Source of the DNA: Planctomycetota bacterium
GTDB lineage: Bacteria > Planctomycetota > Planctomycetia > Gemmatales > Gemmataceae
Assembly: GCA_016873095.1 (NCBI GenBank)
Contig: VGYC01000007.1
Coordinates: 1 to 64,000, forward strand
DNA length: 64,000 nucleotides
Direction: 5' to 3'
In this document: positions 4,078 to 63,867 of the stretch, piece by piece
Position numbering within the stretch: position 1 is the first letter of the stretch
How the letters are laid out: each line of letters opens with the position of its first letter
Program-made: the position numbers and the translations under genes
Notes under the pieces: generated by a model
The model's input: only the letters and a program-made list of their open reading frames with translations
Databases searched by the model: none
What the model was told of the DNA's origin: nothing

Positions 4078-4113
4078 ATCGTTCACTCCTCCATCTGGAG
4101 GACTCTCAAAAAA

Positions 4114-4247
4114 GATTGCAGATTGCAGATTGATTTCTTGGTTTACGTTTCGCGCTCGCAGGCTCAGCTCATCGACCGTGCCCTGCCAGCGCGAAACGTA
4201 AACCAGGCAATCTTAATCTACAATCTGCAATCTCAAATCTGCAATCT
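4114..4247. repeat. Composite nested palindrome in the groEL-dnaJ spacer
   Basis: The outer arms are copies of the AT-rich GATTGCA/AATCTGC unit (GATTGCAGATTGCAGATTG at 4114-4132 against 4208-4247). The inner arms are a perfect 18-bp inverted repeat (TGGTTTACGTTTCGCGCT at 4139-4156, complement at 4188-4205) around a 31-nt loop. The outer family recurs at 5913-5983 and inside the WD40 kinase gene; the inner family recurs at 2891 and 62958. It could form a long hairpin in the chaperone transcript. Confidence 0.8.
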
Positions 4248-5912: not shown

Positions 5913-5983
5913 GATTGCAGAGTGTAGATTTGAGATTGCAGATTGTTACCAAATCTGCAATCTGCAATCGCAAATCTGCAATC
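5913..5983. repeat. AT-rich GATTGCA inverted repeat
   Basis: Between groES and groEL, two roughly 32-nt arms built from GATTGCAGATT-type units face each other across a 7-nt centre. The composition is far more AT-rich than the neighbouring genes. It belongs to the same family as 4114-4247 and 20053-20245. Confidence 0.75.
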
Positions 5984-17500: not shown

Positions 17501-20500
17501 TCGCGCCGGTTTCCAGACTGTCGATCGCCAGCGAATCCTTGCCGCTGGCCACGTCCCAGACCAGGACCGAGGCGGGCGCGAGCTTGGCTTGCTTCTCGAC
17601 CCGGCTGACGCCGGCGGCCGTCACGATGCGCTTGCCGTCATGACTGAAGCGGACCATCCGGACGGGGCCCAGGTATCGTCCGAGGCCGATGACGCGTACC
17701 TCCTTGCCCGTCGCGGTATTCCAGAGACGCACGGTCCCATCCAGCGACGCGGTCGCCGCCAGCTTGCCGTCGGGACTGTAATCGAACGCGGTGACATTGC
17801 CGGTGTGCCCGGTCAGTGCCGTTTCCGGCATCCTGGGCGCTTCGAGCGTCCAGATGCGCGTCAGGCCGCCGCTGGTGGTCACCGCCAGCTTGCCGTCCGG
17901 GCTGATGTCCACATCCGCGACCGCCTGACCATGGCCACGCAGGATGGCCTTTTCGATGCCGCTATCGACTTCCCAGACGCGGGCTGTGGCGTCGGGCGAC
18001 CGGGTGAGCAGCAGTTTCCCGGAGCGGTCGAAGCGCAGGCCGCTCACGGCGTCTCCATGGCCGCGCAGGCGCAGCGTCTCCTTGCCGGTCTTCGCATCCC
18101 AGAGGCGCACCGTTCGGTCGCCCGCAGCAGTCGCGATGAGCTTGCCATCGGGACGAAACGCGATGGCCGCGATCTTGCCGTCATGTCCCGTCATCGTGCA
18201 GATGAACTTGCCGGAGCCGGCATCGTAGACGCTCGCCTCGGACTCAAAGCCGATGGCGACCAGTCGCCCATCTGCAGAGATGTCTGCCGCCTGTGGCCTT
18301 CCCACCGGACCGGGTTTCAGCCCCGGCGGCACATGGGAATAACCCGCCAGCGTTTTTCCAGTTCCCACGTCCCAGAGATGGGCCGCGGTCCGCGAACCGT
18401 CGAGCAGCGACAGGTATGCGGCCGGGCCATGGACCGTGACTTCCACGGACATGGACATCTGGGAGTGCCCGGAGCCGGAACCTGCCTTGGCATCCGCATC
18501 ATACTCCGGGTCCATCGGGACCTTATCGGAATCCGAATAACTGCTGGACCACCCGGCTGCGGCCGCGACCATCAGGACCTTGCCGCTATCCGGTGTGAAG
18601 CGCGCGAGCTTCAACGACGGCTTGGAGGAGAACAACCCCGCTTTGGCCTTCGCACGCAGAGTTTGCAGCAGCTTGCCGCTCACGGCATCATAGACGCGGG
18701 CGGCGCCGTCCCAGGAGGCCGTGACGATCCGCTTGCCGTCCGGGCTGAAATGCCCTTCGATCACCTTGTCCTTCGAGCCACGCAGACGGTGAACCTCCTT
18801 GCCGGTCGTGAGATCGATGACGAAGGCGAGACGATCGGTGTAGCGGTCCGTCTTGCCGTCGGAGTGCACGACCGTCGCATAGCCGTTGCCGGTGACAATG
18901 ACCTTGCTGCCATCGGGACTGAAATTCACGGTCTCCACAGGCAAGCCGTAGCCCGGCCACTGGAGAAGCGTCTTGCCAGAATCGACGTCATGAATCTGCA
19001 GCGAAGGGCCGGCCACGGTAAGGATCCGCTTGCCGTCCGGGAGAAACCGACTGAAGCGGTCGCCGTGATTGACGACGCGAATTTCACGGCATGCGCTCAT
19101 GGCTGCATACAGGGAGCTGAAGGTAAGATGATGCGGCGTTCGCTTCGTGCCCTCGATGGCGAGCAGCAATGCGAGGCCCGGATCGCGGAGGCGGGCGGCA
19201 TCGGCCTCGGCGGCCAGGCGCAGGCCTTCCGCGCGGCTCAACGCCAGATTCTTGGCATCGCGATCGCTTTCGGCTTGCTTGCGTGCCTTGGCCTCGGCCT
19301 CGCGTGCCTGTGCTTCCTTCTTCCGGGCGGCGATGGCGGCATCCTTGGCCTTGGCCTCTTGCCGGCGTGCCTCCGCCTCCTCGCGCTGCGCTTTCTCGGC
19401 CAGCTCGGCCTTGTTGCGCGCCTCTTGCTCGGCCCGGACTGCGGCTTGCTTGGCCAGAATCTCGGCCTCGGCCTTGTCGTTGGCTTTCTTTTCGGCTTGA
19501 ACCGCGCTGTATTCCGCCGCCACGGCGTCCTGCCACTTCCAGGTAATGCCCGCCATGCCCAGCGTGGTGATGAGGACAATGGCGGCCAGGAGCGCCGCGA
19601 CGGCCGGCCGTCGCCTGGCCCACTTGATGGTGCGTTCCCAGGCGCTCGTCGGCCGCGCCAGAATCGGCTCGCCGCGCAGCCAGCGCTCCAGATCGTCGGC
19701 CAGCGCCGCCGCCGATGCGTAGCGCCGCGCCGGGTCCTTTTCGAGGCACTTGAGTGCGATCACCGACAAATCGGGATCGGCCTCGGCGTTGAATCGTCGC
19801 GGATGCTCCGGCTCGCGCTCGATGACTTGCAGCACCGTATCGAGCACTGAATCGGCGCGAAACGGCGGCCGGCCCGTCAGCAACTCGTAGAGGATGGCGC
19901 CCAGGCTGTACACATCCACCGCCGTCGTCAGCCGCTTCTCCGCCCGCGCCTGCTCGGGCGCCATGTAGCTCGGCGTGCCGACGATGGCCCCGCTGCGCGT
20001 CTGCTGGCTATCGCCCTCCACGCGCTTGGCCAGGCCGAAGTCGGTGACAAAGGGGATTGCAGATTGCAGATTGAAGATCGCCGATTGTTCAGACTCGAGG
20101 AGGATATTCGCCGGTTTCAGGTCGCGGTGCAGGATGCCGCGCTGATGGGCATGGTGGACGGCTCGTGCGACCGTGGACAGCAACCGTATCGCATCGGCTT
20201 GACGGCTCCGAAAATCTGAAATCTGCAATCTAGAATCTGCAATCCACTTGGCCAGGCTGTATCCTTCGATCAGCTTCATGCTGAAATAATGCTGCCCCTC
20301 GTGCTCGCCGACCTCGTAGACGGGGACGACGTTGGGATGGCCGAGATCGCCGGCAGCCTGAGCCTCCGTGCGAAACCGCTCGACGTCGCTTGCGGAAGCG
20401 AGCTGTCCGGTCAGGATCATCTTCAGCGCCACAATGCGGTTGAGGCTGATTTGCCGGGCCCTGTAGACCACACCCATGCCGCCGCGGGCAATCTCTTCCA

Positions 20501-27122: not shown

Positions 27123-28832
27123 ATGAGCGGCAACACTCTTGCTGATCACCTTGCGATACCATACCCAAATATTGGTATGGCCATTGTCGAGAAACAACCC
27201 GAGACCTCCGCGCCCTCGGCCACGCCGCTTACGGCGGTATTGCACGACTGGCTGACCACCGTCGATCACAAGAAGATCGGCATCATGTACATACTCATGG
27301 CGCTGCTCTTTCTGGTGCTGGCCGGCGTGCAGGCACTCATCATGCGCTGCCAGCTGTGGTGGGCCGGCAATGACATCGTTGGGCCGGACACGTTCAACCA
27401 GATGTTCACCATGCACGGCACGACGATGGTGTTCTTCGCCGGCATGCCGATCCTGGCGGGCATCGCCAACTATGTCGTGCCGTTGCAACTCGGCGCCCGC
27501 GACATGGCGTTTCCGCGGCTCAATGCACTGGGTCTATGGGCGACGCTTCTCGGCGGGTTGCTGACGTACTTCAGCTTCATCGCCGGCTCGCCGCCGGCCA
27601 TCGGCTGGTTCGCCTATGCGCCGCTCACGCAACGCAACTTCAACATGGGACCAGGAGTCGATTACTGGATCCTTGGTCTGCTGGTCACCGGCATTGGCTC
27701 GGTAACCGGGGCGATCAACCTCGTGGTGACCGTGGTGTGCCTGCGTGCGCCGGGCATGTACCTGCGGCGGTTGCCGCTTTACACCTGGATGGCCTTCTGG
27801 GCGAACCTGCAGATCCTGGCGGTGTTGCCGCCCCTGACGGCCGCCCTCATCATGCTGCTCTTCGACAGAACCTTCGGCACGCACTTCTTCAAACCAGACA
27901 GTGGCGGCTCGGCGTATCTGTGGCAACACCTTTTCTGGTTCTTTGGCCATCCGGAAGTCTACGTGCTCATCCTGCCGGCCTTCGGCATGATCTCCGAGAT
28001 CATCCCGGTGTTCTCGCGCAAGGTGATCTTCGGCTACGAGTTCGTGGCGCTTTCGACGGTCGCCATCGCCTTCATCGCCTTCGGCGTGTGGGCGCATCAC
28101 ATGTTCACGGTGGGCATGCCGCGTGCACTGGACATGTACTTCAGCGCGGCGAGTCTCCTGATCGCCATCCCGACGGGCGTCAAGATCTTCAACTGGCTGG
28201 CGACCATGTGGGGCGGCAAGCTCTGGCTGGCGTCGCCGATGCTGTTTGTCGTGGGCTTCATGTCGATGTTCGTGCTCGGTGGCTTGACCGGCATCATGCT
28301 GGCCGTCGCTCCCATCGACTTCCAGGTGTCGGACACCTATTTCGTCGTCGGCCATTTTCACTGGGTGCTGATCGGCGGCACACTGTTCGGCGTGTTCGCG
28401 GCCCTGCACTTCTGGTATCCCAAGGCGACCGGCCGCATGCTCAATGAAAGACTGGCACGCTGGCAGTTCTGGCTGCTGCTCATCGGCTTTTTCCTGACGT
28501 TCGGCCCGATGCACATCTCCGGCATGCTGGGCATGCCGCGGCGCATCTTCACCTACCCGGCCGACCGCGGCTGGGAATTCTGGAACCAGCTTTCCACCAT
28601 CGGCGCCTTGATCCAGGCACCGAGCTACCTGATATTTGTCTGGAACGTGCTGTGGTCGCTGAAGCACGGCGACATCGCCGGCGACGACCCATGGAACGCC
28701 TGGACGCTGGAATGGGCGACCACGTCGCCGCCGCCGTCATACAACTTCGAGACGATCCCAACGGTGCAGAGCCGCCGCCCGCTCTGGGACCAAAAGCACC
28801 CGGAAGACCCGGACTGGAAGCATGAAGAATAG
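27123..28832 (+). CDS. ctaD: Haem-copper oxidase subunit I
   Basis: A 569-residue, about 12-helix haem-copper oxidase subunit I. The low-spin haem ligand is in MHGTTM. The active site shows GHPEVY (CuB His and cross-linked Tyr), AHHMF (CuB His pair) and VVGHFHWVL (haem ligands). D-channel Asp is in ARDMAFPRLN. These are type A features. The enzyme reduces oxygen to water and pumps protons. The start at 27123 follows a GAGG site; a second ATG at 27177 is possible. It is followed by subunit III, but no subunit II with a CuA site is nearby. An inverted repeat follows the stop codon. Confidence 0.95.
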   Translation: MSGNTLADHLAIPYPNIGMAIVEKQPETSAPSATPLTAVLHDWLTTVDHKKIGIMYILMALLFLVLAGVQALIMRCQLWWAGNDIVGPDTFNQMFTMHGTTMVFFAGMPILAGIANYVVPLQLGARDMAFPRLNALGLWATLLGGLLTYFSFIAGSPPAIGWFAYAPLTQRNFNMGPGVDYWILGLLVTGIGSVTGAINLVVTVVCLRAPGMYLRRLPLYTWMAFWANLQILAVLPPLTAALIMLLFDRTFGTHFFKPDSGGSAYLWQHLFWFFGHPEVYVLILPAFGMISEIIPVFSRKVIFGYEFVALSTVAIAFIAFGVWAHHMFTVGMPRALDMYFSAASLLIAIPTGVKIFNWLATMWGGKLWLASPMLFVVGFMSMFVLGGLTGIMLAVAPIDFQVSDTYFVVGHFHWVLIGGTLFGVFAALHFWYPKATGRMLNERLARWQFWLLLIGFFLTFGPMHISGMLGMPRRIFTYPADRGWEFWNQLSTIGALIQAPSYLIFVWNVLWSLKHGDIAGDDPWNAWTLEWATTSPPPSYNFETIPTVQSRRPLWDQKHPEDPDWKHEE

Positions 28833-28900
28833 TTTTCAATGTTCAATTTTCAGTGTTCAGCAAGAAGGGCTTGCATTACTGAAAACTGAACACTGAAAAC
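28832..28900. repeat. AT-rich inverted repeat between oxidase subunits I and III
   Basis: 23-nt arms (28832-28854 and 28878-28900, two mismatches) built from ACTGAAAA/TTTTCAGT units form a hairpin that begins at the subunit I stop codon. The same unit recurs upstream of leuD (63813-63867) and as a fragment near 44881. Confidence 0.8.
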
Positions 28901-28912
28901 TGAAAACTAAAC

Positions 28913-35626: not shown

Positions 35627-35754
35627 GGCGGCATCCTGAGTGAGTTGCAAGCGATGGGCGACGCTGCCACTATTGTGACTGGAGGGCAAGCGCTTGCCAA
35701 GAGGGAAACGACCCTTTGCTCTCCGAGCGTCATGGCCGTGATTGGACCTTGCGT

Positions 35755-35862
35755 GCCATGCTCACGGCTTTGCGTGAGCATGGCGAACCCAGTTCCAGCG
35801 CGTTCCATTGAGCGATGACGCTGCGTGGCGCAGCCATGCCCACGCAAAGCCGTGGGCATGGC
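35755..35862. repeat. REPIN-like hairpin doublet (copy 1)
   Basis: Hairpin 1 (35755-35784): GCCATGCTCACG, loop GCTTTG, CGTGAGCATGGC. Hairpin 2 (35833-35862): GCCATGCCCACG, loop CAAAGC, CGTGGGCATGGC. The loop of the second is the reverse complement of the first, and the T-A to C-G change in the stem is compensated on the other arm. A second doublet lies at 54761-54862. It is upstream of the ATP-grasp gene. Confidence 0.85.
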
Positions 35863-35892
35863 ACACATGGCACACAACCATTGAGGATATCT

Positions 35893-46407: not shown

Positions 46408-47163
46408 ATGACTCGCGATGAACCATGTATCCTTTTCTCGCTGGCGCGCGAGCGCCGTTCGTTTGCGCGGCTCTTCCCTGCCGAAACAGTCCTCTCGCGA
46501 CTTCCTGACTTGCGCCGCTTGACTGCTCCTGACGGCCACACGGTGTGCGTCCTTCTCACCGGTGTCGGCGACGCCTGCGTGCGTTCCGCGCTGGCCTGGC
46601 TCCTGAACGACCCACGGATTGGCGACCCACGGATTGGCGCTGAGGTGTACCGTCCGCGCTTGCTAATCAGCGCCGGCTTCTCCGGCGCGCTTTGCCATGA
46701 ACTGAGTGTTGGCGACCTCGTGCTGGGCACCGAATTCATCGCCGAGTCGGGGCAGCGCTGGCCGGCGACCCAGCCATGCCCGGCGGCGATCCCCTGCCGG
46801 TGCGGGGCCTTGCTGACTGTAAATCGCTTCGTCACGCGCACCGAGGAAAAACGTGCTCTCGCTCAACGGCATGGCGCGCTGGCGGCGGACATGGAATCGG
46901 CCTGCATCGCTGAATTGTGTCAGCAGTATGGCGTGCCGTTCTGCTGTTTGCGCGTCATCTCCGACGACGCGCGCACGCCGCTCTCACACCATCTCGACAA
47001 CATTGTCGTCAACGGTCAGGTGTCGACCTGGGCGCTCCTGAAAGCCGTGGCCCGCTCGCCGCGCGTCATGCGCGATCTCTGGCGGCTTGGCAAGAACACG
47101 CGCCTGGCGGCCGAGCGATTGGCGAAGGCGCTGGCGACGCTGATTCATACAATGCCGACATGA
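46408..47163 (+). CDS. HpnG/MTAN-like nucleoside phosphorylase
   Basis: A 251-residue purine-nucleoside phosphorylase/nucleosidase. Family marks are SAGFSGALCHELSVGDLVLG (about 92-111), the substrate-binding AADMESACIAE (about 155-165) and LRVISDDA. The C-terminal WALLKAVARSPRVMRDLWRL resembles HpnG, which removes adenine from adenosylhopane. Its stop overlaps the bioB start (ATGATGA). Because BioB releases 5'-deoxyadenosine, which inhibits it, a role in removing this product is attractive but inferred. A 15-bp tandem duplication (46609-46638) repeats DPRIG. Confidence 0.82.
   Translation: MTRDEPCILFSLARERRSFARLFPAETVLSRLPDLRRLTAPDGHTVCVLLTGVGDACVRSALAWLLNDPRIGDPRIGAEVYRPRLLISAGFSGALCHELSVGDLVLGTEFIAESGQRWPATQPCPAAIPCRCGALLTVNRFVTRTEEKRALAQRHGALAADMESACIAELCQQYGVPFCCLRVISDDARTPLSHHLDNIVVNGQVSTWALLKAVARSPRVMRDLWRLGKNTRLAAERLAKALATLIHTMPT
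46609..46638. repeat. 15-bp in-frame tandem duplication
   Basis: GACCCACGGATTGGC is repeated exactly (46609-46623 and 46624-46638) inside the nucleosidase gene and doubles the peptide DPRIG on the protein. Confidence 0.9.
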
Positions 47164-48110
47164 TGACGCAAGCAATTGACGCACCGAGAGAACGACTGAC
47201 CGCGCTGCGCTCGATCTATGCATTGCCGTTGCCGGAGCTGATCTTCCGCGCCGCCAGCGTGCACCGCGAGCATCACGAGATCGGCGACATCCAGCGCTGT
47301 GCCCTGCTGAGCATCAAGACCGGCGGCTGTGCGGAAGATTGCGGCTACTGCGCCCAGAGCGCCCATTTCAAGACCGGAGTGCCGGCCACGCCGCTGCTGT
47401 CGCTCGACGAGGTTCGCGACAAGGCGACCCGCGCCCGCGAACTGGGCGCCACGCGCTTTTGCATGGGCACGGCCTGGCGCGAGGTCAAGGACGGCCTTGC
47501 CTTCGACCGTATCCTCGACATGGTCCGCTGCGTTCGCGGCCTGGGGATGGAGGCCTGTGTCACCCTCGGCATGTTGACTGACGAACAGGCCAGGAAGCTC
47601 GCGGACGCGGGACTGACCGCCTACAACCATAACCTCGATACCTCGCGGCGCTATTATCCGCAGATCGTCAGTACACGGTCCTACGATGAGCGGCTGGAGA
47701 CGCTCAGGTCGATTCAGCGGGCCGGCATCTCCGTCTGCTGCGGCGGCATCATCGGCATGGGCGAGACCGAGGATGATCGCCTCGAATTGCTGGCGGAGCT
47801 GGCGAGCCTGGATCCGGTGCCGGAGAGCATCCCGATCAACTGCCTGGTGCCGATCACCGGCACGCCGCTGGAAAATGCCGAACCCGTCGATGCCATCCAG
47901 CTCGTCCGGCTGATTGCCACGGCGCGAATCGTGTTTCCGAAGGCGCGTGTGCGCCTCAGCGCCGGCCGGGACCGCATGAGCCGGGAATTGCAGGTGCTTT
48001 GTTTTCTTGCCGGCGCCAATTCGATCTTCTTCGGCGACAAGCTGCTCACGGCGCCGAACCCGGACGCCGGCGACGACGCGGAGCTGTTCCGGGCGATGGG
48101 CTTGACGTGA
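47160..48110 (+). CDS. bioB: Biotin synthase
   Basis: A 315-316-residue radical-SAM biotin synthase. The [4Fe-4S] motif is CAEDCGYC (Cys 56, 60 and 63 from the second Met); further conserved parts are SAHFKTG, YNHNLDTSRRYY, CCGGIIGMGE and the C-terminal RLSAGRDRMS and GANSIFFGDKLLT. It inserts sulphur into dethiobiotin. The frame extends upstream through the nucleosidase gene, but the family start is at ATG 47160 or 47163, overlapping that gene's stop, so translation is probably coupled. Confidence 0.95.
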   Translation: MMTQAIDAPRERLTALRSIYALPLPELIFRAASVHREHHEIGDIQRCALLSIKTGGCAEDCGYCAQSAHFKTGVPATPLLSLDEVRDKATRARELGATRFCMGTAWREVKDGLAFDRILDMVRCVRGLGMEACVTLGMLTDEQARKLADAGLTAYNHNLDTSRRYYPQIVSTRSYDERLETLRSIQRAGISVCCGGIIGMGETEDDRLELLAELASLDPVPESIPINCLVPITGTPLENAEPVDAIQLVRLIATARIVFPKARVRLSAGRDRMSRELQVLCFLAGANSIFFGDKLLTAPNPDAGDDAELFRAMGLT

Positions 48111-48137: not shown

Positions 48138-49268
48138 ATGAACCTCGACGATCGCTGGACAACGATTCTGGAGGAGCTTCGTGCCGCCGGCCGGTATCGC
48201 CGGCTCGACGCGCCGCGCGGTTTAGACCTGTCGTCAAATGACTACCTGGGGCACGGGCGCAAGCCGCCGCCTGATTGCAAGTTGCCCGGCAGCGGCCTGT
48301 CGTCGCGTCTGGTTCATGGGCAGCATCCCACCTGGGACAAGGTTGAATCCGAGCTGGCAGGCTGGCATGCCTGTGAAGCGGCCCTGGTCTTCACCAGCGG
48401 CTACGTCGCCAACGAGGGCTTGCTCGCGACCATCCTCGAGCCGGGCGACTTCGTCGCGTCCGATGAGTTGAACCATGCCTCGATTGTGGACGGCATTCGT
48501 CTGGGCCGCGCTGAGAAGTTCATCTTCCGCCACAACGACCTCGAGCACCTGAAGCATGGGCTTCTCGCGGCGCGCCAGCGGCAATCAGCCGGCCGGCAGC
48601 TATTCGTTGTCACCGAGTCGCTCTTCGGCATGGATGGCGATCTGACACCTCTCGCTGAGATCGTCGAGATCTGCCAGCGCTTCCAGGCGCACCTGATCGT
48701 CGATGAGGCACACGCGACGGGTTGCTTCGGCCCGGAGGGTGCCGGTCGAATCGCCGAAGCCGGCTTGCGGCAGCACGTGCTCGCCACCGTGCACACCGGA
48801 GGCAAGGCGCTCGGCGTGGCCGGGGCTTACGTATGCGGCTCGCCGCGGCTGCGCGAGTTGCTCATCAACCGCTGCCGGCATTTCATCTACACCACGGCGC
48901 TACCCGCGGCGCTGAGCGACTGGTGGCTGCATGCTCTGGCACGGACGCGCGCGGATGACGACGGCCGACGCCGGTTGCACGAGGTAGCCGGCCACTTCCG
49001 CCGCGAGCTTGCCCGCCACGGCGTTGACGCGGCCGGCACGGGCTATATCGTGCCCATCGTCGTCGGCGCGGATGCCGAAGCAACGGCGGCGGCCGCCAGG
49101 CTGCAAGCGCTCGGCTTCGACATTCGCGCGATTCGTCCACCATCGGTCCCCGCCGGCACGGCGCGGCTGCGCGTGTCCATTCACGCCGACCACGACATGG
49201 ACGTGCTGACGCTCGCCGCCGCCGCCATCGCCCATGTTCTGACGCCGACCCCGCTGAGTATCTCATGA
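48138..49268 (+). CDS. bioF: 8-amino-7-oxononanoate synthase
   Basis: A 376-residue PLP enzyme of the alpha-oxoamine synthase family. It condenses pimeloyl-thioester with alanine in biotin synthesis. Visible marks are LSSNDYLG, GSGLSSRLVHGQH, FTSGYVANEG, VDEAHATG and the PLP lysine in HTGGKALG (Lys223). It lies 27 bp after bioB and overlaps the next gene by 4 bp (ATGA). No bioC or bioH is present in the window, so pimeloyl supply is encoded elsewhere. Confidence 0.93.
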   Translation: MNLDDRWTTILEELRAAGRYRRLDAPRGLDLSSNDYLGHGRKPPPDCKLPGSGLSSRLVHGQHPTWDKVESELAGWHACEAALVFTSGYVANEGLLATILEPGDFVASDELNHASIVDGIRLGRAEKFIFRHNDLEHLKHGLLAARQRQSAGRQLFVVTESLFGMDGDLTPLAEIVEICQRFQAHLIVDEAHATGCFGPEGAGRIAEAGLRQHVLATVHTGGKALGVAGAYVCGSPRLRELLINRCRHFIYTTALPAALSDWWLHALARTRADDDGRRRLHEVAGHFRRELARHGVDAAGTGYIVPIVVGADAEATAAAARLQALGFDIRAIRPPSVPAGTARLRVSIHADHDMDVLTLAAAAIAHVLTPTPLSIS

Positions 49269-51292
49269 CCGACCTGCTTGTCCTTGGCACCGACACCGAC
49301 GCAGGCAAGACGGCCTTCTGCTCGCAGTGGCTGGCCGCCTTCCATGAACAGTGGGAATACTGGAAGCCCGTCGAGACCGGCAATTCTGATACGGCGACCG
49401 TCCGCGCGCTCGTCCCCGGCGCGTCGGTTCACGCGCCTTTGAAGGCGCTGACGGAGCCGGTGGCGCCCTTGCTCGCGGCGCGGCGAGCGGGCGACACGGT
49501 GCCTTGCGTCGCGACGATCGTTGCTGCTCGGCCGACGGCGGCCCCCGGTCGTGGCTTGCTCATCGAAACCTTTGGCGGGCCCTTCTCGCCACTGGATGAA
49601 GCGGATTTGCAGATCGCGCTGGTGCGGGCGCTGGCCTGTCCCTCCGTGCTCGTGTCTTCATCGGCTCTGGGCGCCATCGGACGGACACTGCAATGTCTCG
49701 ACGCCCTGGCTGGATCCGGTATCCGGCCTCTGGCGGTTGTATTGCTCGGTTCTTTGGACGCATTCGCCGCCGAGCAGATCGGCAAGCATGGACGCGTTCC
49801 AGTAGGTTCGCTGAAACTGCCCGCCGCCTGGGAACCGGCGGCCATCGCGGACTCGGCGCGGCAACAATCCGTCGCCCTTCAGGATCTGCGCGGTTTGCTG
49901 CCTCGGGAGGGCGAGGCTCCCGCCGAGCCGCGAACTCGCGAGAGTCATGACCGTCGGACGGCTCGGCAGGAGCCTCGCCCTCCCGAACTCGGACCTCGCA
50001 CTCCCAGACTCGAATCTCGCCCAACCGCGTCTGCCGATTTGCAGGCCCGTGACCGGCGTGTCGTCTGGCATCCGTATACCTCGCTGTGTGCGCCGGACCT
50101 GCCCTTGCCGTGCATCGGCGCCGAGGATGAGTTTTTGATCCTGGCAGACGGCCGACGGCTGATCGACGGTATTTCGTCGTGGTGGACGATCCTGCATGGA
50201 CATCGGCACCCGCCGCTGGTGCAGGCGCTGCATGACGCGCTGGCGCAAATCGATCATGTCCTGTTCGCCGGTGTCACCCATCCCTGGGCGGTCGACCTGG
50301 CCGAGTTATTGCTGCAAACGACACCCTGGCGAGGCGGCCGCGTGTTCTACTCCGACAACGGCAGCACCGCCGTCGAGGTCGCGCTGAAGATGGCTTACCA
50401 GTACTGGTGTCAGCAGGGCGAGCCGGGGCGGACGCGTTTCGTCGGTTTCGAGGCCGGTTATCACGGCGACACCTTCGGCGCCATGTCGGTCAGCCGCGAT
50501 CCAGTGTTCTTCGGTCGCTTCGAGCCGCTGCTGTTCCACGCGGACATCGTCCCGGTCTGTGCCGACAGGCTTGAAGCGGCGCTCAGGAAACGGCCCGGCG
50601 AGGTGGCGGCCGTCATCATCGAACCACTGGTGCAAGGCGCCGGCGGCATGCGCATGCACACCCCAGACGAGCTGCGCGACATTGTCGCGGCGGCGCGTGC
50701 CAGCAACGTGCTGGTCATCGTCGATGAAGTGATGACCGGCGGCGGCCGCACTGGAACCCTGTGGGCACATCAGGCCGCGCGCGTGGTGCCCGACCTCATC
50801 TGCTCGAGCAAGACGCTGACTGGCGGCATGATGCCGCTGGCGGCGACGCTGGTTTCACCAATGATTGTGTCAGCCTTCGATTCGCCCGAGCCCTCCGGCA
50901 CGTTCTTTCACGGACACTCGTTCACGGCGCACCCGCTGGCATGCGCGGTCGCCGTCGCCAGCTGGCGGATCCTGACCGAGCAACCGTCGCTCGCCCCGGC
51001 GCGCATGGAGGAATTCTGGCAAGCATCCCTCACGCCGTTGCAGGAATTGCCACACGTGCGCGACGTGCGCATTCGTGGCTGCATCGCCGCCGTGGAGCTG
51101 AACGTGCCGGGCGGCTACCTCGCCGATGCCGGGCGATCGATGCGGCAACTATGTCTGCAGCATGACGTGTTCCTGCGACCGTTGGGAAACGTGCTGTACG
51201 CGCTGCCGCCGTTGTGCACGTCGCCAGCATCGCTGGAGCGGATCGCGGCGGCAATGCACCATGCGGTGCGCAGTATCGCCGACCGCGCTTGA
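49265..51292 (+). CDS. bioDA: Fused dethiobiotin synthetase / DAPA aminotransferase (BioD-BioA)
   Basis: A 675-residue bifunctional enzyme. Residues about 1-210 are BioD: the ATP-binding loop GTDTDAGKT (8-16), KPVETG and the ETFGG segment. Residues about 260-675 are BioA: WHPYTS, DGISSWW, SDNGSTAVEVALK, GYHGDTFGA, VDEVMTGGGRTG and PLP-lysine Lys516 (SSKTLTGG). Together they convert 7-keto-8-aminopelargonate to dethiobiotin. The linker (about 213-260) is encoded in part by an 84-bp inverted repeat (49903-49986) read in frame. The order D-A matches plant BIO3-BIO1 fusions; bacterial fusions are uncommon. Confidence 0.92.
   Translation: MTDLLVLGTDTDAGKTAFCSQWLAAFHEQWEYWKPVETGNSDTATVRALVPGASVHAPLKALTEPVAPLLAARRAGDTVPCVATIVAARPTAAPGRGLLIETFGGPFSPLDEADLQIALVRALACPSVLVSSSALGAIGRTLQCLDALAGSGIRPLAVVLLGSLDAFAAEQIGKHGRVPVGSLKLPAAWEPAAIADSARQQSVALQDLRGLLPREGEAPAEPRTRESHDRRTARQEPRPPELGPRTPRLESRPTASADLQARDRRVVWHPYTSLCAPDLPLPCIGAEDEFLILADGRRLIDGISSWWTILHGHRHPPLVQALHDALAQIDHVLFAGVTHPWAVDLAELLLQTTPWRGGRVFYSDNGSTAVEVALKMAYQYWCQQGEPGRTRFVGFEAGYHGDTFGAMSVSRDPVFFGRFEPLLFHADIVPVCADRLEAALRKRPGEVAAVIIEPLVQGAGGMRMHTPDELRDIVAAARASNVLVIVDEVMTGGGRTGTLWAHQAARVVPDLICSSKTLTGGMMPLAATLVSPMIVSAFDSPEPSGTFFHGHSFTAHPLACAVAVASWRILTEQPSLAPARMEEFWQASLTPLQELPHVRDVRIRGCIAAVELNVPGGYLADAGRSMRQLCLQHDVFLRPLGNVLYALPPLCTSPASLERIAAAMHHAVRSIADRA
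49903..49986. repeat. 84-bp inverted repeat inside the BioD-BioA linker
   Basis: 28-nt arms (49903-49930 and 49959-49986, one mismatch; they include GGGAGGGCGAGGCTCC) flank a 28-nt centre. The frame remains open and encodes REGEAPAEP and later RQEPRPPE between the two enzyme domains. The element is unlike the surrounding catalytic domains. Confidence 0.9.
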
Positions 51293-54663: not shown

Positions 54664-54760
54664 ACGGTTATTCTAAGACCAGAATCATTCTCAGAACCAC
54701 GAGCGTGTGGCGCAATTCGCAAGAATTCCACTTGAGTTCTCGATTGACTCGAGTCCGCGT

Positions 54761-54862
54761 GCCATGCTCACGGCCTTGCGTGAGCATGGCGAGATGGTGC
54801 TCGATTTGCAAGGATGTCGCGGCGTGGCAATAGCCATCCTCACGCAAGCGTGTGAGCATGGC
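54761..54862. repeat. REPIN-like hairpin doublet (copy 2)
   Basis: Hairpin 1 (54761-54790): GCCATGCTCACG, loop GCCTTG, CGTGAGCATGGC, perfect. Hairpin 2 (54833-54862): GCCATCCTCACG, loop CAAGCG, TGTGAGCATGGC, with two mismatches. The spacing (42 nt) and inverse orientation match the doublet at 35755-35862 (48 nt). It fills most of the spacer between pdxA and the DUF1501 gene. Confidence 0.85.
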
Positions 54863-54884
54863 ACGCACAATTGCAGTCCAGGCC

Positions 54885-63804: not shown

Positions 63805-63812
63805 CCAAGTGG

Positions 63813-63867
63813 TCAGTTTTCAGTTCTGAACACTGAAAACTGAACACTGAAAACTGAACACTGAAAC
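63813..63867. repeat. AT-rich ACTGAAAACTGAAC repeat upstream of leuD
   Basis: Tandem copies of the ACTGAAAACTGAAC unit, preceded by an inverted copy (CAGTTTTCAGTTC), in the dapB-leuD spacer. They match the hairpin at 28832-28900. Confidence 0.8.

Follow-up and report, generated by a model that had tools for sequence, protein, structure and literature searches.

The linker between the two domains of a fused BioD-BioA enzyme was shown to be a recurrent landing site for unrelated palindromes of the host genomes. In the Gemmataceae planctomycete analysed here, of which a stretch of 64,000 nucleotides (the window) was studied, the linker carries an 84-bp palindrome that is one copy of a dispersed, mostly extragenic family. 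Very probably, BioD and BioA were already fused when a mobile palindrome entered their linker with the frame kept, and the insert was tolerated there, the linker being permissive to unrelated palindromes.

The fused bioD-bioA gene was delimited from its open reading frame and profile matches at positions 49265 to 51292 of the forward strand, including the stop codon, and encodes 675 amino acids. Two genes on the same strand lie upstream. The first is a bioB reading frame (46917 to 48110; TIGR00433, 386 bits, above the cut-off), the true start of which is probably downstream of the start of the reading frame; the profile match begins at residue 98. The second is a bioF-type gene (48138 to 49268), which shares its last 4 bp with the beginning of the fused gene and has TIGR00858 as its best match, at 330 bits and under the 426-bit cut-off of that profile. 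In the fused enzyme, Pfam AAA_26, a BioD-type domain, matched residues 4 to 180 and Aminotran_3 residues 286 to 668, and the bioA profile TIGR00508 spanned residues 267 to 668, above its cut-off. An AlphaFold2 model built with 38 relatives gave a well-modelled BioD (dethiobiotin synthetase) domain (residues 1 to 209; 49265 to 49891) and a well-modelled BioA (DAPA aminotransferase) domain (residues 256 to 674; 50030 to 51286), both on the forward strand. The inter-domain linker (residues 210 to 255; 49892 to 50029) contains the palindrome, and its residues 220 to 253 had a pLDDT below 50 and were predicted to be disordered. The catalytic motifs, namely the GTDTDAGKT P-loop region, KPVETG and the BioA SSKTLTGG lysine (K516), were intact in one open frame, and residues D10, T11, G14, K15, K34 and K516 were invariant in the 38 relatives. 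The fused enzyme is presumably active. A literature search for BioD-BioA fusions returned nothing on the topic.

A preliminary description of this DNA had reported an inverted repeat of 84 bp, with 28-nt arms and one mismatch, that lies between the BioD and BioA domains and is read in frame, and both observations were upheld. The repeat lies at 49903 to 49986. Its left arm (49903 to 49930, forward strand) and right arm (49959 to 49986, reverse strand), identified by inverted-repeat comparison, were paired at 27 of 28 positions (96% complementary), and they enclose a 28-nt loop (49931 to 49958), the sequence of which varies from copy to copy. The RNA fold of the repeat was −70.7 kcal/mol (z = −7.5), and none of 200 shuffled sequences was equally stable. 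On the forward strand the element is read as residues ~214 to 241 (REGEAPAEPRTRESHDRRTARQEPRPPE), between the AAA_26 and TIGR00508 matches, and the reading frame passes through it with no stop codon (...LLP-REGEAPAEPRTRESHDRRTARQEPRPPE-LGP...). The encoded peptide, REGEAPAEP...RQEPRPPE, is hydrophilic and rich in Pro, Glu and Arg in the frame that is used, and the GC-rich arms are free of stop codons in all frames. Comparison with known structured RNAs gave just sub-threshold hairpin look-alikes, which were animal microRNA models at 30 bits against a cut-off of 100.

Within the window, the arm motif GGGAGGGCGAGGCTCC was confined to the two arms of this repeat. Palindromes of other kinds were also observed there. 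A second palindromic family of the genome, a long inverted repeat with arms containing GCCATGCTCACG..., was present at 35747 to 35870 and 54757 to 54866, both copies being outside genes or at a gene edge. Imperfect palindromes composed of short units resembling AGATTGCAG and TTTTCAGT were found between genes at 4113 to 4247, 5913 to 5983, 28830 to 28911 and 63808 to 63862, and these resembled one another at distant places of the window.

The search of the genome for further palindromes that the preliminary description had suggested was productive. In the 8.36-Mb draft genome (548 contigs) the arm motif gave 89 + 85 = 174 matches with at most one mismatch, compared with no matches for the backwards control pattern, and BLAST with the element identified about 45 further places at ~75-90% identity. 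The genome stretches surveyed contained at least 50 paired copies and 36 single-arm sites. Most paired copies measured 79-80 bp from GGG to CCC. The conserved arms of the paired copies are GGGAGGGCGAGGCTCC(T/C)GCCGAGCCG, and about 20 copies had a longer form, in which the outer flanks contain GAGCAG/CTGCTC. Terminal inverted repeats were present in the junction copy and in the genomic copies. Local clusters and tandem arrays of the element were also noted (G000:C4 28486-28695 and 70845-71066; G000:C86 26994-27830), and the longer flanking unit in these clusters (GAGCAGTGGATGGGCCGAATTT...) may be the complete mobile unit. The distribution of the family was patchy: 20 of the 95 family genomes carried the arm motif (up to 341 exact arms in G089, and 262 in G015), as did 17 of 392 genomes across the phylum, mostly in low number.

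It is this distribution which suggests that the copies moved by transposition. There was no excess of matching 3-8-base flanks, as a target-site duplication would leave, around 50 copies, and no transposase gene was located beside element copies in the surveyed stretches. The genome has five Y1_Tnp genes, and the arm motif was within ~1.5 kb of none of them, although contig gaps or degradation of the flanks could have concealed it. The flanks of the copies had no common motif except for a pyrimidine-rich base beside the arm.

About 13 of 86 element sites in the surveyed stretches were read through inside genes, the remainder being mostly outside genes; in this count the borderline sites BioDA, L055 and L169 were included manually, and neighbouring arms were merged at L033 and L156. 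Besides the fused bioD-bioA gene, the element was in frame in about ten genes that are unrelated to one another. In PabB the copy is within the N-terminal region. In three further products it separates two domains: PUA from the methyltransferase domain in an RlmI-like methyltransferase, AIRS_C from the following PurM-like domain in PurL, and DEAD from Helicase_C in an Lhr helicase. The other products include a cytochrome c protein, a DEAD helicase and a lactate permease. One frame, giving REGEAPAEP and/or ARQEPRPP, is shared by nearly all of the in-gene copies. In PabB, a short connector precedes LPPFQGG in 15 of 15 relatives, and the palindrome-encoded peptide occupies this place in the genome studied; this copy is an unambiguous insertion.

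A length of 1 mod 3 was found in none of ten paired in-gene copies and in 25 of 40 other copies (Fisher p = 0.0006), or with p = 0.011 when the long-form copies, which are not independent in this test, were left out. Copies were assigned to the in-gene and other classes by a simple codon-usage score trained on the window, and since the classes were set after the data had been seen, the result is supportive of filtering by frame and not decisive. The paired in-gene copies were open in four to six of the six frames, so little is lost when 3n bases enter a linker that is disordered. We propose that presumably mobile palindromes would land widely across the genome and that copies inside genes would persist only if the frame was kept and folded cores were avoided, copies that break frames or folds being lost; selection against broken copies would thus have shaped the observed pattern. 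The copy studied here would have entered the pre-existing linker of an already fused BioD-BioA with the frame kept, and would have been tolerated because the linker is disordered, the arms are stop-free and the peptide is hydrophilic.

The same linker was found to have been hit by other palindromes in relatives. Palindromes of different sequence were present in frame at the BioD-BioA junction in G063/G067 (RDRQGAADNARTVSGRPIPDGRGS), G027, G023, G034 (LTPNPSPQRGEGS), G062, G066, G016/G019, G015, G060 and G042; across the relatives, about 11 palindromic element types are found at this linker. The linkers of G063, G067, G023, G027, G034, G062, G066, G042 and G089 had many further matches in their own genomes and those of G015, G060 and G016 had few, whereas the palindrome-free control linkers of G049 and G054 matched just themselves, as did those of G061 and G064 among the matches listed. 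When one rule was applied throughout, strong inverted repeats were present in 11 of 46 linkers, compared with 9 of the 602 remaining 125-nt windows in these genes (Fisher p = 7e-9); among the 46 genes are one that is truncated and four records in which the frames are broken or separate. Repeat-bearing linkers were also longer: the median distance between the beginning of the BioD match and the WHPY motif was 732 nt, versus 693 nt for the others (p = 0.002). The tree requires at least nine changes of palindrome presence and 13 of palindrome type, counts which include one tandem-repeat linker and one weak hairpin; because some close relatives share ancestry, the independent events are fewer than the entries.

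A second permissive site was identified in a BioA loop just before GGRVFYSDNG/GRVFFSDNG, where in-frame palindromes were found in G029 (G029:C60 ~18321-18414, locus L099/L179) and G043 (G043:C285 4883-4965, locus L103/L182). These two palindromes differ from one another and each is multicopy in its own genome. Two other linkers deserve mention. That of G002:C163 (L065) has been lengthened by a tandem repeat (ARPDPARPDP...), with no palindrome. The linker hairpin of G089:C495 61138-61227 (L184) has an NN assembly gap at its centre and a frame that looks broken; G089 was considered as a relative split by the insert and was rejected, as the broken frame coincides with the NN gap inside the hairpin. 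Perfect hairpins have probably been misassembled elsewhere too.

Such recurrence might suggest that unrelated palindromes are targeted to the junction or positively kept there, as translational pause hairpins or useful disordered spacers, a reading that we consider unlikely. A hairpin could be selected at the junction, for example by slowing the ribosome so that BioD folds before BioA, or by acting in the mRNA. The very stable fold is in keeping with such a role, as is the excess of strong hairpins of unrelated sources in the linker relative to the rest of the gene; however, 35 of the 46 junctions have no strong inverted repeat, the same element occurs in unrelated genes and mostly outside genes, the BioA loop has been hit as well, and tolerance at a disordered site accounts for the excess with no function invoked. 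Since most linkers have no hairpin, a selected role is not needed, and we regard it as quite improbable. The preliminary description had called the palindrome domesticated; in the sense of a selected function this term was not supported. Tolerance at a permissive site explains the data, because at this position some relatives have other palindromes and some have none.

Alternatively, the elements might favour a feature of the DNA, such as a pre-existing hairpin or a GC-rich stretch, which would make the junction an insertion hot spot. Several lineages have been hit within the same ~100 nt, the G023 junction has two adjacent hairpins, and tandem clusters are numerous elsewhere. Nevertheless, the elements have no target in common, the linker sequence being unconserved, and the flanks offer no common motif beyond the pyrimidine-rich base next to the arm. 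A target preference has a low probability.

The possibility that the insertion itself created the fusion, in that the bioD stop codon was lost and the repeat provided an open linker, was addressed by comparison with relatives. The position of the repeat exactly at the junction fits this proposal, as do the separate genes of distant records: in the more distant L118-L120, and only there, bioD and bioA are unfused and adjacent or overlapping. However, the search of 95 family genomes and the scan of genome contigs recovered about 40 distinct fused BioD-BioA genes, with proteins 47-64% identical, most of which are palindrome-free; the majority were placed in Gemmataceae, for example in Zavarzinella formosa and Limnoglobus roseus. 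In a tree of 608 columns from which the linker was left out, L101 was the sister of the sequence studied (support 97/99) and is fused with no palindrome, and the deepest fused branches also had no palindrome. The L101 linker is already fairly long, so the length of the linker here is not due to the element alone. Among the relatives compared, all of which are too distant, there was no exact empty site for this linker. These comparisons indicate that the fusion predates the palindrome and that the insert lengthened an existing linker; an origin of the fusion by insertion is ruled out by the fused relatives with no palindrome and must be considered highly improbable. The preliminary description had proposed that a repeat insertion joined two genes or lengthened their junction, to be examined by comparing the junction in relatives. 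The lengthening stood, with a dispersed repeat inserted in the linker and read in frame, but the joining did not, as the fusion was already present with no repeat. A chance inverted repeat or an assembly artefact, which the draft state of the assembly and the NN gap in the G089 linker hairpin might bring to mind, is contradicted by the genome-wide copies (174 arm matches against a control of 0), by the fold, by in-frame sequence that is unbroken within an 84-kb contig and by the patchy distribution of the family with its hundreds of exact arms, and is almost certainly wrong.

Intragenic palindromes have precedents. The Rickettsia palindromic elements (RPE; Ogata et al. 2000, 2002) are, as summarised in PMC10969869, short dispersed palindromes, part of which lie in frame inside unrelated genes and add a peptide to the gene product, as here. 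RPEs are ~150 bp rather than ~80 bp long, differ in sequence and phylum, and are found inside genes in nearly half of cases, against ~13 of 86 sites here; PMC10969869 does not mention, for RPEs, repeated hits of unrelated elements on a single linker. The element may be called RPE-like in behaviour, being multicopy, in frame in unrelated genes and absent from homologues, a likeness of behaviour and not of sequence. REPs of the GTAG and CGTC superfamilies are dispersed palindromes, mostly extragenic with some inside genes; their families occur in Planctomycetes, and different REPs lie at about the same recB site in X. campestris and X. oryzae (PMC3733652). They are 20-40 bp long, compared with a unit of ~80 bp here, the arms here (GGGAGGGCGAGGCTCC(T/C)GCCGAGCCG) have no GTAG or CGTC tag, and no tyrosine transposase (RAYT) gene adjoins a copy in the surveyed stretches. 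By its sequence, the element is not a GTAG/CGTC REP. It resembles MITEs in being small, non-coding by itself, flanked by terminal inverted repeats, multicopy and patchy between species, but a target-site duplication and a parent transposon were not found, and MITE status is not established.

The Arabidopsis bifunctional BIO3-BIO1 has the same domain order as the bacterial fusion. Both activities are on one chain in each (PDB 4a0f, 4a0g, 4a0r), and among the 50 matches listed the Arabidopsis fusion was the only two-domain match across almost the whole model, at 23% identity and an rmsd of ~13 Å; the domain arrangement differs and the bacterial linker is repeat-derived. No mention of the peptides GEAPAEP, PLPDGRGS or NPSPARGEG was found in a limited literature collection. 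The novelty lies in how often a single fusion linker has been hit, and in the occurrence in planctomycetes.

These findings carry a warning for annotation, as REGEAPAEP...ARQEPRPP and RDRQGA...PDGRGS in planctomycete proteins are repeat-derived and are not conserved domains. If palindromes were indeed targeted to or kept at the junction, dispersed palindromes would be a general supplier of inter-domain linkers in planctomycetes. The BioD-BioA linker provides a natural replicate experiment, in which one enzyme linker has received about 11 palindrome types across lineages and empty relatives are available for comparison. It makes directly testable the role of palindromes as linker suppliers, their filtering by frame and fold, and the effect of hairpins on translation at domain junctions.
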